DNA from: Ciceribacter sp. L1K22
GTDB lineage: Bacteria > Pseudomonadota > Alphaproteobacteria > Rhizobiales > Rhizobiaceae
Assembly (NCBI RefSeq): GCF_017599385.1
Contig: NZ_JAGFPK010000001.1
Location: forward strand, 498,177-562,176
Length of the DNA stretch: 64,000 bases
Direction: 5' to 3'
A model generated the notes under the pieces. The model searched no databases and had not been told where the DNA came from. It worked only from the letters and a program-made list of their open reading frames with translations. Positions 8,515 to 15,101 of the stretch are shown here, in pieces. Numbering within the stretch: position 1 is the stretch's first letter; each line of letters starts with the position of its first letter. The position numbers were made by a program, and so were the translations under genes.

Positions 8515-8604
8515 TGGCGGACAGAGAGGGATTCGAACCCTCGATACGCTTTCACGTATACACGCGTTCCAGGCGTGCGCCTTCAACCACTCGGCCACCT
8601 GTCC
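8515..8604 (-). tRNA. tRNA-Ser (GGA anticodon)
   Basis: On the minus strand the sequence begins GGACAGGTGGCCGAGTGG and ends TTCGAATCCC, CTCTGTCC and an encoded CCA. The acceptor stem GGACAGG/CTCTGTCC region pairs, the T-arm GGTTCGAATCC is canonical, and a long variable arm (ATACG...CGTAT) marks a class II tRNA. The anticodon loop CTGGAAC gives GGA, reading UCC/UCU serine codons. CCA is genome-encoded at 8515-8517. Confidence 0.95.
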
Positions 8605-9171: not shown

Positions 9172-9855
9172 ATGTTTCTGATCGACATGTTCAACAAGAA
9201 AATGACGATGCCGTCCGCCGAAACGGCTTTGCCGGGTCGCCCGCGACCCATCGAAACTGCTGACCTTCACGTCATATCGGCGAGGTCGCTGCTTGCAATG
9301 CCCCCTGCCGGTTTCGCCACCATCTATCTGGGCTTGGGGAATTTTTGGGCCGCCGAGCGCCTCTTCTGGAATCTGCCTGGGATTTGGGTGACCGCCGTTG
9401 GCTTCCAGGGCGGCTTTACGCCCAATCCTACCTTTCAGGAGGTGATGACCGGCCTCACAGGCCATGCCTGCGTGGTCAAGATCGTGTACGATCGATCGTC
9501 CTTGCCGCTTCACTCCATATTGAAGCTGTTTTTCGAGGCTCATGATCCGACGCAGGGCATGCGGCAGGGAAATGACATAGGCACGATGTTCCGGTCGGTA
9601 ATTTTCGGTGCCGATCAACAGTCCGTCGACCTCGCGATCCGGATGCGTGATCTCTATCAGAGTGCTCTTCTCGCCGCAGGTCGCAGGCAGACCGTGACCA
9701 CGACAATCACCATAGCGCCAGAATTTTACCACGCCGAAGAATATCACCAGCAGTATCTTGCAAGGAACGTGGGTGCCTCCGCCGTTTTAAGGGGCACGGG
9801 CGTGCCGTGTCCGGTGCTGGATGATGCCGATCTCCACTGGGCGATTTCCACGTGA
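9172..9855 (+). CDS. MsrA-fold protein lacking the catalytic residues (putative pseudoenzyme)
   Basis: This 227-residue protein follows the peptide-methionine (S)-S-oxide reductase fold along its whole length (AAERLFWNLPG, GFTPNPTFQEV, GLTGHACVVKIVYD, EAHDPTQGMRQGND, AEEYHQQYLARN). The residues needed for catalysis are changed: the nucleophile in the GCFW motif is Asn57 (codon AAT at 9340-9342), the active-site Glu of GHAEVV is Cys100, the two active-site Tyr are Phe78 and Phe140, and the recycling Cys of the C-terminal GYCG is absent. Only the Phe-Trp pair and Asp135 remain. The frame is intact, with GGGAG 7 bases before the ATG, so it looks like an expressed non-methionine-reducing paralogue, not a decayed gene. 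The binding role is unknown. Confidence 0.85.
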   Translation: MFLIDMFNKKMTMPSAETALPGRPRPIETADLHVISARSLLAMPPAGFATIYLGLGNFWAAERLFWNLPGIWVTAVGFQGGFTPNPTFQEVMTGLTGHACVVKIVYDRSSLPLHSILKLFFEAHDPTQGMRQGNDIGTMFRSVIFGADQQSVDLAIRMRDLYQSALLAAGRRQTVTTTITIAPEFYHAEEYHQQYLARNVGASAVLRGTGVPCPVLDDADLHWAIST

Positions 9856-10034
9856 TCACAATAGCTTGGATTGAGTTTTACCGGATGAAAAAAATCTGGT
9901 GAATTTTTCCTGCAGCCATGCAAGGATGAGCACAGCTAGGCCTCCGGCAGGTGGCCGGTGCAACCGCAGACATGCCCCCAAAGGGCTTGCGGGAGGACCC
10001 GATAAGATCAATAGCAACAAACAGGGCTGCAAAA

Positions 10035-11027
10035 ATGAAGAAAACCCTCATCAGTCTCTTTGCCTTGGCCGCGATGTCGGCGACGGCGCTCGCTGCCGAA
10101 ATCAAGCCTGCGCTTGTGTATGGCACCGGTGGCAAGTTCGATAAGTCCTTTAACGAAGCCGCCTATAATGGCGCTGAGAAGTTCAAGGCGGAGACCGGTA
10201 TTGAATATCGTGACTTCGAACCGACGGGCGACACGCAGGGCGAACAGGCGATCCGCAACTTCGCGTCCCGCGGTTACAACCCGGTCGTCGCGGTTTCCTT
10301 TGCCTGGACCTCTGCTGTGGAGAAGGTCGCCGCCGAGTTCCCGGATACCAAGTTCATCATCGTTGATGCCGTCGTTGACCTGCCGAACGTTCGTTCGGTT
10401 GTTTACAAGGAAGAAGAAGGCTCATACCTCGTTGGCGTCCTGGCGGGCATGGCCTCCAAGACCGGCAAGGTCGGCTTTGTTGGCGGAATGGACATTCCGC
10501 TGATCCGCAAGTTCGAGTGCGGCTACGAGCAGGGCGCACGCGCGGCCAACCCAAATATCGAAGTCTTCCAGAACATGACCGGAACCACAGGCGCTGCCTG
10601 GAACGATCCGGTGCGGGGCGGCGAACTGACGAAGAATCAGATCGACCAGGGCGCTGACGTGATCTATGCGGCAGCCGGCGCGACTGGCCTCGGCGTGCTG
10701 CAGACCGCGGCCGATAACGGTAAACTCTCGATTGGCGTGGACTCCAACCAGAACCACCTGCATCCCGGTTCGGTCCTGACCTCGATGGTCAAGCGCGTCG
10801 ATCTGGCTGTCTACAATGCCTACCTCGACACCCAGGGTGACAAGTTCACCGGCGGCGTCCAGGCTCTCGGCGTCAAGGAAGACGGCGTTGCTTATGCGCT
10901 CGACGAAAACAACGCCTCGCTGATCACTGATGACATGAAGGCCGCCGTTGAAAAGGCAAAGGCCGACATCATTGCCGGCACGGTCAAGGTTCATGACTAC
11001 ATGACGGACAATTCCTGCCCGAAGTGA
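10035..11027 (+). CDS. BMP-family nucleoside ABC importer, periplasmic binding protein
   Basis: This 330-residue exported protein belongs to the basic membrane protein (BMP/PnrA/Med) family, which binds purine or pyrimidine nucleosides. A signal peptide covers residues 1-21 (KKTLISLFALAAMSATALA). Family motifs include GGKFDKSFNEAAYNG near the mature N-terminus and GVDSNQNHLHPGSVLTSMVKR. It heads a cluster with an ATPase, two permeases and four nucleoside-catabolic genes, which supports nucleosides as the cargo. The ATG at 10035 is chosen for the signal peptide; the upstream extension is charged and unlike a leader. Confidence 0.9.
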   Translation: MKKTLISLFALAAMSATALAAEIKPALVYGTGGKFDKSFNEAAYNGAEKFKAETGIEYRDFEPTGDTQGEQAIRNFASRGYNPVVAVSFAWTSAVEKVAAEFPDTKFIIVDAVVDLPNVRSVVYKEEEGSYLVGVLAGMASKTGKVGFVGGMDIPLIRKFECGYEQGARAANPNIEVFQNMTGTTGAAWNDPVRGGELTKNQIDQGADVIYAAAGATGLGVLQTAADNGKLSIGVDSNQNHLHPGSVLTSMVKRVDLAVYNAYLDTQGDKFTGGVQALGVKEDGVAYALDENNASLITDDMKAAVEKAKADIIAGTVKVHDYMTDNSCPK

Positions 11028-11074: not shown

Positions 11075-11099
11075 CATGTCTGCTATCCGGAGGTCATCG

Positions 11100-12611
11100 G
11101 TGAACCAAGCGCCAGCGATCGAACTCGTCGGCATCGATAAGAAATTCGGTGCCGTACACGCCAATAAGAACATAAACCTGACGGTGGCCAAGGGATCGAT
11201 CCACGGTATCATCGGCGAAAATGGTGCGGGGAAGTCGACGTTGATGTCGATACTCTACGGCTTTTATCAAGCCGACAGCGGGACGATCAGCATCGACGGC
11301 AAGCCGGTCACGATTCGCGACAGTCAGTCCGCGATCGAGGCAGGTATCGGTATGGTCCACCAACACTTTATGTTGGTGGAGAACTTCACCGTTCTCGAAA
11401 ACCTGATGCTTGGTGCGGAAGGCGGCGGTCTTCTTGCAAAGGGTGCTGAATCGGCGCGTCAAACCCTAAGAAAGCTCGCCGACGACTATGGCCTGGAAGT
11501 CAATCCCGATGCCGTAGTGGAGGAGCTGCCGGTTGGCCTGCAACAGCGTGTCGAAATCCTCAAGGCCATGTATCGGGGTGCCGAAATTCTGATCCTTGAT
11601 GAACCGACAGGTGTGCTGACGCCGGCGGAGGCCGATCATCTCTTCAAGATCCTTGGCGTCCTGCGCGACCAGGGAAAGACAATCCTGCTGATTACCCACA
11701 AGCTTCGTGAAATTATGGCGATCACCGATACCGTCTCGGTCATGCGGCGCGGTGAAATGGTGGCAACCCGGAAGACGTCTGAGACGACTGTCGAGGAGTT
11801 GGCGGAACTGATGGTCGGTCGCCGGGTATTGCTCCACGTCGAAAAGGGCGCGGCAAACCCGGGAGAGGTCTACCTCTCTGTTCGGAACCTGACGGTCAAG
11901 GACAGTCGTGGGGTGACGATGGTCGACAACGTCTCCTTCGATGTCCGCGCCGGTGAGATCGTGGGCATCGCCGGCGTCGCCGGCAACGGCCAGAGTGAGT
12001 TGCTTGAGGCCATTACCGGCATCCGCAAACCGACGACGGGTGAAATATGGATCAACGGCAGGAATGTCGCCGGTCTCGATCCTGCTGCCCTCCGTGGTAT
12101 CGGACTGGCTCACATCCCCGAAGACCGTCACCATATGGGTCTTGTTCTTCCGTTCGAGGAAAGTCAGAACGCGATCCTCGGCTATCACCGCGATGAACGC
12201 TATGGACGAGGCCCGTTCCTGGATCCTGAGGCGATCCGCAAGGCGGCCGTCGAAGAGATCGAGAAATACGACATCCGTCCGCCGAACCCTCGGCTGAAGA
12301 CGGCCAACTTCTCCGGCGGCAACCAGCAGAAGATCGTGGTCGCGCGCGAAATCGAGCGTGACCCGAAGCTTCTGATCGTCGGCCAACCGACCCGTGGCGT
12401 CGACATTGGCGCCATCGAATTCATTCATAGCCGCATTGTCGAGACCCGCGACGCCGGCAAGGCAATCCTTTTGGTGTCGGTGGAACTCGACGAGATACGG
12501 TCGCTGTCCGACCGTGTCCTGGTGATGTTCGCCGGCCGGATCGTTGGTGAGAAGACGCCGGATACGGGTGAACAGACGCTCGGCCTGATGATGGCCGGTA
12601 TCGCGGCATGA
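11100..12611 (+). CDS. Nucleoside ABC importer, duplicated ATPase
   Basis: This 503-residue protein has two ATPase domains like the sugar/nucleoside (RbsA/NupA-type) importers. The first has Walker [10 protein letters not shown] at residues 39-47, a Q-loop with [12 protein letters not shown], and LTPAEA after Walker B. The second has the degenerate Walker [10 protein letters not shown] usual for this subfamily and the signature [12 protein letters not shown] at 11100 is chosen because GGAGG lies at 11089-11093, 6 bases upstream; the ATG at 11076 lies within the terminator tail. It is followed 7 bases later by the first permease. Confidence 0.88.
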
Positions 12612-12618
12612 GGTTTCT

Positions 12619-13722
12619 ATGAGTACTGCTTCCGTCCCGCTTCCGAACTGGATCAACTACGCGCTTCTGCCGCTGATCAACCTGCTGCTGGCATTCCTCG
12701 TCTCGGGCTTCGTTGTGTGGGTTATCGGCGAGGACCCGGTCGAGGCGCTGAAGCTCATGCTGCAGGGCGCGCTGGGACGCGGCGAAGGCATCGGCTTCAC
12801 GCTGTTTTACGCAACGAGCTTCATCTTCACCGGTCTGTCCGTCGCCGTGGCCTTCCACGCCGGCCTTTTCAACATCGGCTCGGAGGGGCAGGCTTATGTT
12901 GGCGGTCTTGGAGCGGCGCTCGCGGCTCTCGCCCTCGATCACTACGTTCCGTGGTACGTTACCATGCCGTTCGCCATTCTCGGTGGCGCCCTGTTCGGGG
13001 CAGGCTGGGCTCTCATTCCGGCATGGCTCCAGGCCAAGCGCGGCAGTCACATCGTCATCACGACGATCATGTTCAACTTCATCGGCGCATCGCTGATGGT
13101 CTACCTGCTCGTCAACGTCTTGCGCGTGCCGGGAAAGATGGCGCCCGAGACGCGCACTTTCCTTGAAGGCGGCCAGTTGCCGAAGCTCGACGGGCTGATG
13201 TCGCTCCTTGGCATGAAGCTCGGCGCCGCGCCCTTCAACGTCTCCTTCCTGATCGCGCTTCTGATGTGTTTCCTCGTCTGGGTTCTCATCTGGCGGACCA
13301 AATTCGGCTATGAAATGCGCACCTTGGGCCTCTCGCGCTCCGCTGCTGCATATGCCGGCGTGCCCTATGTCCGCACCGTCATTCTCACCATGTTGATCTC
13401 GGGCGGTCTGGCCGGCATGATGTCATTGAACCCGGTGCTCGGCGCTTCGGCGCGCTTGCAGGTCGAGTTCGTCGGCGGTGCCGGTTTCGTCGGAATCGCG
13501 GTTTCGCTCATGGGGCGCAGCCATCCGCTAGGCATCATCCTGGCCGCGATCCTGTTCGGCATCCTTTACCAGGGCGGGGCGGAACTCTCGTTCGACATGC
13601 CCAACATCACCCGCGACATGATCGTCGTCATCCAGGGTCTGGTGATCCTGTTCGCGGGCGCGCTGGAATACATGTTCCGCCCGGCGATCGTCAGGGTCTA
13701 TCAGCAGTTCGTGAAGGCTTGA
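12619..13722 (+). CDS. Nucleoside ABC importer, permease 1
   Basis: This 367-residue membrane protein belongs to the branched-chain-like permease superfamily used by BMP systems (BmpB/YufP/NupB type). It has about ten hydrophobic segments; the family signature AFHAGLFNIGSEGQAYVGG lies near residue 75, and GYEMRTLGLSRSAAAYAG is the coupling-loop region. It lies 7 bases after the ATPase and 13 before the second permease, so all are one operon. Confidence 0.88.
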   Translation: MSTASVPLPNWINYALLPLINLLLAFLVSGFVVWVIGEDPVEALKLMLQGALGRGEGIGFTLFYATSFIFTGLSVAVAFHAGLFNIGSEGQAYVGGLGAALAALALDHYVPWYVTMPFAILGGALFGAGWALIPAWLQAKRGSHIVITTIMFNFIGASLMVYLLVNVLRVPGKMAPETRTFLEGGQLPKLDGLMSLLGMKLGAAPFNVSFLIALLMCFLVWVLIWRTKFGYEMRTLGLSRSAAAYAGVPYVRTVILTMLISGGLAGMMSLNPVLGASARLQVEFVGGAGFVGIAVSLMGRSHPLGIILAAILFGILYQGGAELSFDMPNITRDMIVVIQGLVILFAGALEYMFRPAIVRVYQQFVKA

Positions 13723-13735
13723 GGGGACAGGAACC

Positions 13736-14707
13736 ATGGATTTCTTCGATATCCTCGTCAGCATTCTCGGCTCCACCATCCGGCTGTCGATTCCGCTGAT
13801 CTTCACGGCGCTCGCGGGACTGTTTTCCGAACGGGCCGGCATCTTCGACATCGGCCTGGAAGGCAAGATGCTCGCGGCCGCCTTCGCCTCCGCCACGGTC
13901 GCCTATGTCACGGGTTCGCCGTGGGTCGGGCTCCTGGCCGGTATTCTGGTCTCGATCTTCTTCTCGCTTATCCACGGCTTTGCCTCGATCACGAACCGGG
14001 GAAATCAGATCGTGTCCGGCGTTGCAATCAACTTCGTCGCCGCCGGGCTGACGGCCGTTCTGGGGCAGGCCTGGTTCAGCCAGGGGGGTCGCACGGCGCA
14101 ACTGACTGGTGACGCCCGGTTCTCGCCGATCATACTTCCCGGGGCGGATCTCGTTCGTGACATCCCCATCATCGGCCCGCTCTATGCGAATGTCATCTCC
14201 GGCAACAATATCCTGACCTATATGGCTTTCCTTGCCGTTCCGCTGGCCGCCTGGGTTCTCTACCGCACCCGCTTCGGCCTGCGCCTACGAGCCGTCGGCG
14301 AAAATCCCGGTGCCGTCGACACAGCCGGCATTTCCGTCGCCTTCCTGCGATACCGCGCCGTCATCGTCGCCGGCTTCCTGTGCGGCTTCGCGGGCACCTA
14401 CCTTGCGATTGCCCAGTCGGCTGCCTTCATCAAGGACATGTCGGCCGGCAAGGGCTACATCGCCCTCGCGGCCCTCATCTTCGCCAAATGGCGGCCGGTT
14501 CCGGTGCTCTTCGCCTGCCTGCTGTTCGGCTTCCTCGACGCGCTCGCGAATTTCATGCAGGGCAAGTCCGTTCCCTTGATCGGCGAGGTTCCGGTGCAGA
14601 TCTTCCAGGCTCTGCCTTACATTCTCACCTGCGTGCTGCTCGCCGGCTTCATCGGCGCGGCCAACCCGCCCAAGGCCGGCGGCGTGCCCTATGTAAAGGA
14701 GCGTTGA
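13736..14707 (+). CDS. Nucleoside ABC importer, permease 2
   Basis: This 323-residue membrane protein is the second permease (BmpC/YufQ/NupC type). Characteristic segments are LAGLFSERAGIFDIGLEGKMLA near the N-terminus, HGFASITNRGNQIVSGVAINF in the middle, and RLRAVGENPGAVDTAGISVAF as the ATPase-facing loop. GAGGGGACAG precedes the ATG. Its stop is followed directly by cdd at 14709. Confidence 0.88.
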   Translation: MDFFDILVSILGSTIRLSIPLIFTALAGLFSERAGIFDIGLEGKMLAAAFASATVAYVTGSPWVGLLAGILVSIFFSLIHGFASITNRGNQIVSGVAINFVAAGLTAVLGQAWFSQGGRTAQLTGDARFSPIILPGADLVRDIPIIGPLYANVISGNNILTYMAFLAVPLAAWVLYRTRFGLRLRAVGENPGAVDTAGISVAFLRYRAVIVAGFLCGFAGTYLAIAQSAAFIKDMSAGKGYIALAALIFAKWRPVPVLFACLLFGFLDALANFMQGKSVPLIGEVPVQIFQALPYILTCVLLAGFIGAANPPKAGGVPYVKER

Positions 14708-14708
14708 G

Positions 14709-15101
14709 ATGTCTCACGACCTGTTCGAAGCCGCCCGCGACGCCATGCGCTTCGCGCATGCGCCTTACTCCAAGTTTCCGGTCGGTGCGGCAATCCGCGC
14801 CGACGATGGAAAGATCTACACCGGCGCGAACATCGAGAATCTGTCCTTCCCGCAGGGCTGGTGCGCCGAACCCACTGCCATCGGCTGTATGGTCATGGGT
14901 GGTGGAAGGGAGATCGTCGAGATGGCGGTGATCGCCGAAAAGATGCCGCTCTGCCCTCCCTGTGGCGGATGCCGTCAGAAAATTGCGGAATTCGCTTCGG
15001 CCGCCACGAAGATTTATCTGTGCGACGAAGTCGGCGTGAAAAAGACCATGACCATGAACGAATTGCTGCCCTTCAGCTTCGAGACGGACCTCCTCGGATG
15101 A
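14709..15101 (+). CDS. cdd: Cytidine deaminase
   Basis: This 130-residue enzyme deaminates cytidine and deoxycytidine to uridine and deoxyuridine in pyrimidine salvage. It is of the short homotetrameric type. Zinc ligands and catalytic Glu are visible: Cys52-Ala-Glu54 (WCAEPTAIG) and Cys85/Cys88 (PPCGGCRQ); the ribose-binding segment NIENLSFPQG precedes them. It starts 1 base after the permease stop and its TGA overlaps the ATG of punA, so import and deamination are co-expressed. Confidence 0.93.
   Translation: MSHDLFEAARDAMRFAHAPYSKFPVGAAIRADDGKIYTGANIENLSFPQGWCAEPTAIGCMVMGGGREIVEMAVIAEKMPLCPPCGGCRQKIAEFASAATKIYLCDEVGVKKTMTMNELLPFSFETDLLG

Follow-up and report, generated by a model that had tools for sequence, protein, structure and literature searches.

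A gene in the window, a stretch of 64,000 nucleotides from Ciceribacter sp. L1K22, encodes a protein that has kept the fold of the methionine sulfoxide-reducing MsrA and has lost the nucleophilic cysteine together with further catalytic residues. As a rule, MsrA is regarded as an enzyme that is recognised by the cysteine of its GCFW motif; the window protein, an enzyme homologue without the catalytic residues, fits the definition of a pseudoenzyme. It is probably a retained one with a non-catalytic role, which it would most likely exert with the adjacent small membrane protein, referred to here as UP.

The intact, full-length reading frame reported in an earlier note on this sequence is borne out by an ATG start with a Shine-Dalgarno-like gggag seven bases 5′ of it and a coding-like GC3 of 0.68 (Table 1). 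The preservation of the MsrA fold, claimed in the same place, also stands. Residues 50–200 match PF01625 with 153.6 bits against a cut-off of 23.7, and the predicted structure (pLDDT 91, pTM 0.89), for which the underlying alignment of 25 contained canonical MsrAs and thus favours the fold, superimposes on E. coli MsrA (1ff3) over 211 residues with a Z score of 31.7 and an rmsd of 1.7. By profile and fold, the protein qualifies as a member of the homologous family MsrA (PF01625). It also exceeds the cut-off of TIGR00401, the NCBI msrA equivalog (152.9 versus 108.1), so that an annotation pipeline would label the gene an active reductase.

Table 1. Features of the msrA locus in the window
Feature	Position	Strand	Remarks
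tRNA-Ser (GGA)	8515..8604	-	Rfam (8518-8604), ARAGORN
Small membrane protein UP, 106 aa	8806..9126	+	45 bp upstream of msrA; conserved partner gene
Cys-less MsrA-fold protein, 227 aa	9172..9855	+	N57, F78, F88, C100, D135, F140; Ala at the Cys198 position
BMP-family nucleoside-binding protein	10035..11027	+	Opens the conserved ABC operon downstream; right flank for synteny
ABC ATPase, two permeases, cytidine deaminase	11076..15101	+	Conserved on the right flank; presumably without a part in the function

The gene order tRNA-Ser(GGA), UP, msrA, BMP, ABC ATPase, two permeases and cytidine deaminase is common to the relatives within the genus and to G095, a genome of another genus, and the tRNA-Ser forms the left edge of the locus in all ten loci scanned (eight Cys-less, two canonical). 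The BMP proteins of the window and of the relative G042 are 92% identical, the ATPases 90% and each of the permeases 88%, as compared with 65% for MsrA and 55% for UP. The window gene occupies the position of its relatives' catalytic msrA and is the syntenic orthologue of it; since the gene order matches their msrA locus, an origin as a duplicate is rejected, and the term paralogue used in the earlier note does not apply. The BMP reading frame as listed starts with GTG at 9951, the likely start being the ATG given in Table 1 (330 aa; relatives match over 330 residues). In a search for RNA elements at the locus, two tRNAs were the only features of the window to reach Rfam gathering scores.

Excerpts of two papers describe the roles of C51, C198, Y82, E94 and Y134 (PMC6316033, PMC6210582), Tyr82, Glu94 and Tyr134 serving to hold the oxygen of the sulfoxide (PMC6316033); numbering follows E. 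coli MsrA without Met, as derived from the alignment. Among 121 distinct long-type sequences compared, 113 carry Cys51 of GCFW and are by this definition canonical, and all 113 also carry C198, Y72, Y82, E94, D129 and Y134. In the window protein, Cys51 is replaced by Asn57, Glu94 of GHAEVV by Cys100 and the resolving Cys198 of GYCG by alanine, the loss of all three having been read correctly in the earlier note. Its further claim that both active-site tyrosines are phenylalanines (78 and 140) holds for Phe140, the counterpart of Tyr134. Phe78, by contrast, corresponds to Tyr72 of GYxGG and not to the sulfoxide-binding Tyr82, whose true position, Phe88, is likewise a phenylalanine. The statement that every key catalytic residue is replaced is accurate for C51, Y82, E94, Y134 and C198 and goes too far for Asp129 (D135), Phe52 (F58) and Trp53 (W59), which are still present, as are the arginine after Tyr134 and a C-terminal histidine. 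Because five of the six catalytic positions that are invariant in the 113 canonical relatives differ, and because the change from Cys to Asn requires two base changes, chance or sequencing error is very unlikely as the source of these substitutions. Judged from its residues, the window protein should not reduce methionine sulfoxide, catalysis being very unlikely.

In a survey of related genomes, 62 of 63 genomes of the genus contain an MsrA match and 52 the long type, with GCFW in 50 and GNFW in two, namely the window's genome (G000) and the other Cys-less member of the genus, G041. The long-type msrA is absent from ten genus genomes that have the short type only (G004, G005, G010, G033, G055–G058, G060 and G061); the locus may have been lost outright in places, G033 being 88% complete. 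In the family sample, at least 245 of 297 genomes encode a long-type MsrA, defined as a match to the window protein at E ≤ 1e-40 in a protein search, among the matches listed. DNA patterns that fix FW and the Glu after it, the longer one also the second FW, were used in addition. The first pattern, GNFWxAE, matched four of 394 family genomes and its reversed control gave eight matches, so the pattern alone proves nothing; translation identified true MsrAs in G000, G095 and G257 and a chance match in G121, a frame of 50 aa. The longer non-Cys pattern matched five of 394 genomes in the family (G000, G095, G257, G264 and G380; reversed control, one), two of 397 in the order (G000 and G810; reversed control, none) and one of 385 in the class (G000 only; reversed control, one), these samples overlapping. 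It excludes nucleophile codons starting with T, and thereby misses serine encoded by TCN as well as Tyr and Phe variants; G041 escapes it, and both G041 and G1219 came from the protein search. Eight Cys-less MsrAs are thus at hand, with Asn (G000, G041, G095, G257), Ser (G810, G1219), Lys (G264) or Gly (G380) in place of the nucleophile. All eight have an intact, full-length frame, and since the patterns fix FW, frame integrity and FW retention in the copies found by pattern are partly by design. The genus of G095 has the long type in two of its four genomes, both with Asn (protein search); in that of G810, all 26 sampled genomes have it, and the nucleophile position is Cys in 24 of them and Ser in G810 and G1219. 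The earlier note had named the absence of conserved orthologues with identical replacements as a refutation of its reading. This condition applies by half, the Asn being shared by three other orthologues and the whole set by none. The nearest relatives of the window protein are canonical, and the Cys-less form is missing from all close relatives of the window's species.

The loss of C51 and that of C198 are coupled, C198 being absent from all eight sequences without Cys51 and from none of the 113 canonical ones. The pocket residues of the Cys-less forms vary: G095 and G257 keep Y82, E94, D129 and Y134, whereas the window protein keeps only D129 of these four. The Ser-type sequences G810 (L131/L161) and G1219 (L184) have the longest branches; G810 has exchanged Tyr82 for His and Asp129 for Leu, and G1219 has no cysteine. 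On a tree of 122 rows, from which the active-site columns had been removed, the nucleophile state needs five changes, and the same number is obtained with a thinned set of 68 rows. Parsimony on this tree shows that the nucleophile was lost at least five times in the order, in the same gene pair. A single old Cys-less clade of all eight forms (AU p 0.004) and one clade of the four Asn forms (AU p 0.003) are rejected, while a clade of G000 and G041 is not (AU p 0.12). G095 and G257 group together at 100/99. G810 and G1219 meet on long branches, a grouping flagged by the program as possibly false, and G264 and G380 are also found together on long branches. Long branches are a feature of the Cys-less rows in general, exemplified by the window protein with a length of 0.81, whereas the terminal branches of the three sequences closest to it measure 0.01–0.09.

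These accelerated branches are in keeping with slow decay, a reading in which catalysis became redundant through a second MsrA and was lost, the frame being simply unbroken so far. We regard this as unlikely for the window gene, though as the likeliest of the rival readings. A second MsrA is available in each case: all eight Cys-less genomes encode at least one other GCFW MsrA. The earlier note proposed to look for a second, canonical msrA in the genome; elsewhere in the window's genome, the Pfam model detects one further MsrA, which is of the short type and carries the motifs GCFW, GYTGG, HAE and SYRS as well as a C-terminal Cys. One MsrB is present as well. Within the genus, a second MsrA occurs in both Cys-less genomes versus six of 50 canonical ones (Fisher p 0.02, relatedness not corrected), a count obtained by searching with the window protein, the Pfam model having been applied to three canonical genomes. 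Decay would also be in keeping with the ten genus genomes left with the short MsrA only and with the substitution sets, which differ from one Cys-less lineage to the next, as drift following a single inactivating change would lead one to expect.

By NG86, the pair G095/G257, both with Asn, has a dN/dS of 0.33 (bootstrap 0.24–0.47; 300 of 300 resamples below 0.57). Canonical pairs at similar dS have a median of 0.078 (68 pairs), and a value of at least 0.27 is seen in six of 24 disjoint pairs. Purifying selection thus acts in this Cys-less pair, well below a ratio of 1 in two genes sharing the loss, which speaks against decay, but it is relaxed relative to most canonical pairs, which speaks for it. 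The window copy differs from its nearest relative with a dN of 0.27 and a dS of 2.1; as this dS is saturated, a position-based test was used instead, in which the columns that are alike in the three nearest canonical relatives were classed as invariant or variable across all canonical sequences and the six catalytic columns were excluded. The window protein departs from five of 46 invariant non-catalytic columns, as compared with 53 of the 142 that vary (Fisher p 0.0005), and thus retains 41 invariant positions. Of the five changes (G60A, Y78F, P108R, P200V and G202A), G60A and Y78F lie in or beside active-site motifs, and P200V and G202A in the segment of the lost resolving cysteine. Selection on the window copy itself is only shown indirectly. 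The retention of invariant fold positions argues against decay, as do the retention of UP and of the gene pair, the eight intact frames, even though the searches favour intact motifs, and a neutral simulation with point mutations only, in which 107 of 2000 runs got to 25% protein change before any stop codon arose. The term retained pseudoenzyme, coined for this protein in the earlier note, is therefore supported by the intact frame, the invariant fold positions, the recurrence at the same locus and the purifying selection in the Cys-less pair.

For a retained pseudoenzyme, catalysis would probably be dispensable since another GCFW MsrA is encoded elsewhere, and the MsrA fold would be kept for a second, non-catalytic job. 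In the model of the window protein, the nucleophile site lies just before helix 58–66, and its replacement is Asn, Ser or Gly in seven of the eight Cys-less proteins. These three residues are favoured as helix N-caps. Replacements of this type would fit selection for a stable fold once the chemistry had been given up.

The best candidate for the second job, suggested by gene neighbourhood, would be a structural partnership with UP in the inner membrane. UP has two hydrophobic segments; the window copy is predicted to be helical, with long helices at 2–31 and 79–95 (pLDDT 82, pTM 0.64), and ends in the tail AGRFAV. Of the 30 genus copies whose flank is complete, 29 end in RFAA, the exception being the window copy with RFAV; with partly covered copies included, the count is 37 of 39. 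Basic residues at each end suggest that both ends are cytosolic. UP is located directly upstream on the same strand in 89 of 99 distinct long-type loci with more than 2.5 kb of sequence (81 of 91 canonical and eight of eight Cys-less), 88 copies having been detected by BLAST and the divergent copy of G380 by eye; in 22 further loci with about 200 bases of flank, the end of UP is visible in nine, and 13 are too short to tell. The ten loci without UP are all canonical, nine coming from other named groups (Martelella, Rhodobacteraceae, Maricaulaceae, Acidobacteria, Chloroflexi and actinomycetes); the tenth, L185, belongs to the genus of G810. In Hyphomicrobiales, the gene usually found upstream of a long-type msrA is that of UP, a protein that lacks a family name. 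The window copy matches no Pfam or NCBIfam model, another copy has two weak matches far below cut-off, and a homologue on pSymB of S. meliloti, 48% identical, is annotated as a hypothetical protein. An acceleration of UP along with the Cys-less MsrA is not seen in the window, where identity to the copy of G042 is 0.55, equal to that of the canonical pair G042–G019 (0.55); the UP of G041, at 0.49, is slightly below canonical pairs (0.53–0.55). Through its cytosolic ends, a short basic N terminus and a basic AGRFAA-type tail, UP would tether the MsrA fold to the membrane, and the tethered fold could serve as a binding or scaffold subunit. It is gene neighbourhood that suggests a contact between UP and MsrA, and UP could also act alone.

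A role as a methionine sulfoxide binder or sensor, proposed in the earlier note, in which the pocket binds oxidised methionine without reducing it, has a precedent in the Neisseria C51S MsrA, solved with MetSO substrate bound (3bqf; excerpt of PMC6210582), and would be served by the F52, W53 and D129 that the window protein retains. The residues assigned to holding the sulfoxide oxygen (excerpt of PMC6316033) are, however, Phe, Cys and Phe in the window protein, making this role improbable there, whereas MetSO binding is plausible for G095 and G257, which retain all three residues and the whole pocket. Least likely of all is the new Cys100-based chemistry that the note had also considered, with Cys100 as the nucleophile and Cys213 as the resolving cysteine: the two are the sole cysteines of the window protein, Glu94 is an active-site residue (PMC6316033, in part), Cys213 lies in the C-terminal tail that bears resolving cysteines in canonical MsrA, and migrated catalytic residues are known from other pseudoenzymes (PMC10211241, in part), but the seven other Cys-less proteins carry His, Gln or Glu at position 94, two of them containing no cysteine at all, and with Tyr82 and Tyr134 also gone the sulfoxide would hardly be activated.

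Beyond the window, the pseudoenzyme reading can tentatively be extended to UP–MsrA of Hyphomicrobiales as a membrane-associated module, a proposal we consider possible and rather less secure than the reading of the window gene itself. MsrA would have two jobs, reduction and a non-catalytic one with UP; the catalytic residues would have been stripped at least five times where another MsrA covers reduction, the module being kept, and the active enzymes would share the second function. Recurrent, frame-intact loss of catalysis at one gene pair amounts to a natural experiment that separates the reductase from other MsrA roles, and it points to the unnamed UP as a partner candidate. If the module reading is true, the Cys-less proteins expose a general second MsrA function. 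In excerpts of the respective papers, the catalytic Cys is described as conserved in Deinococcus MsrAs (PMC8945050) and GCFW as conserved in 25 rhizobial MsrAs studied (PMC13272141). Judged by titles and the openings of abstracts, no paper on natural Cys-less bacterial MsrAs was found in the open literature, a scope that leaves out most subscription journals and makes the novelty provisional.

Canonical long-type MsrA, exemplified by the E. coli enzyme and the rhizobial msrA product encoded beside UP, shares with the window protein the fold, length, N-terminal extension, F52/W53 pocket and D129, and the rhizobial enzyme also the locus and the gene pair; in contrast to it, the window protein has no nucleophile, Glu94, Tyr82, Tyr134 or Cys198. 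The C51S MsrA of Neisseria meningitidis PilB (3bqf) likewise has an MsrA fold without a nucleophile. It differs in that the change is artificial and single and the sulfoxide pocket is intact and binds substrate. According to parts of PMC5587910, the thalidomide-binding domain of cereblon, a structural homologue of MsrB, employs an Msr fold for substrate presentation rather than reduction; with its MsrB fold, eukaryotic origin and unrelated sequence, it serves as a precedent only. The same excerpt describes a second function besides sulfoxide reduction for the MsrA of Haloferax volcanii, which acts in sampylation (PMC5587910). This function depends on the nucleophile C13 and on E56, for which the window protein has no counterparts, and an archaeal-style ubiquitin-like function is therefore rejected. 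A mammalian MsrA splice form without the active site also has no catalytic cysteine; in contrast to the window protein, it is missing a whole exon, no protein was detected, and its authors judged it non-functional (PMC1431549, in part). Finally, a mammalian oxidoreductase that has lost its catalytic selenocysteine illustrates, in another family, the loss of a catalytic residue followed by further change (PMC10958145, in part).
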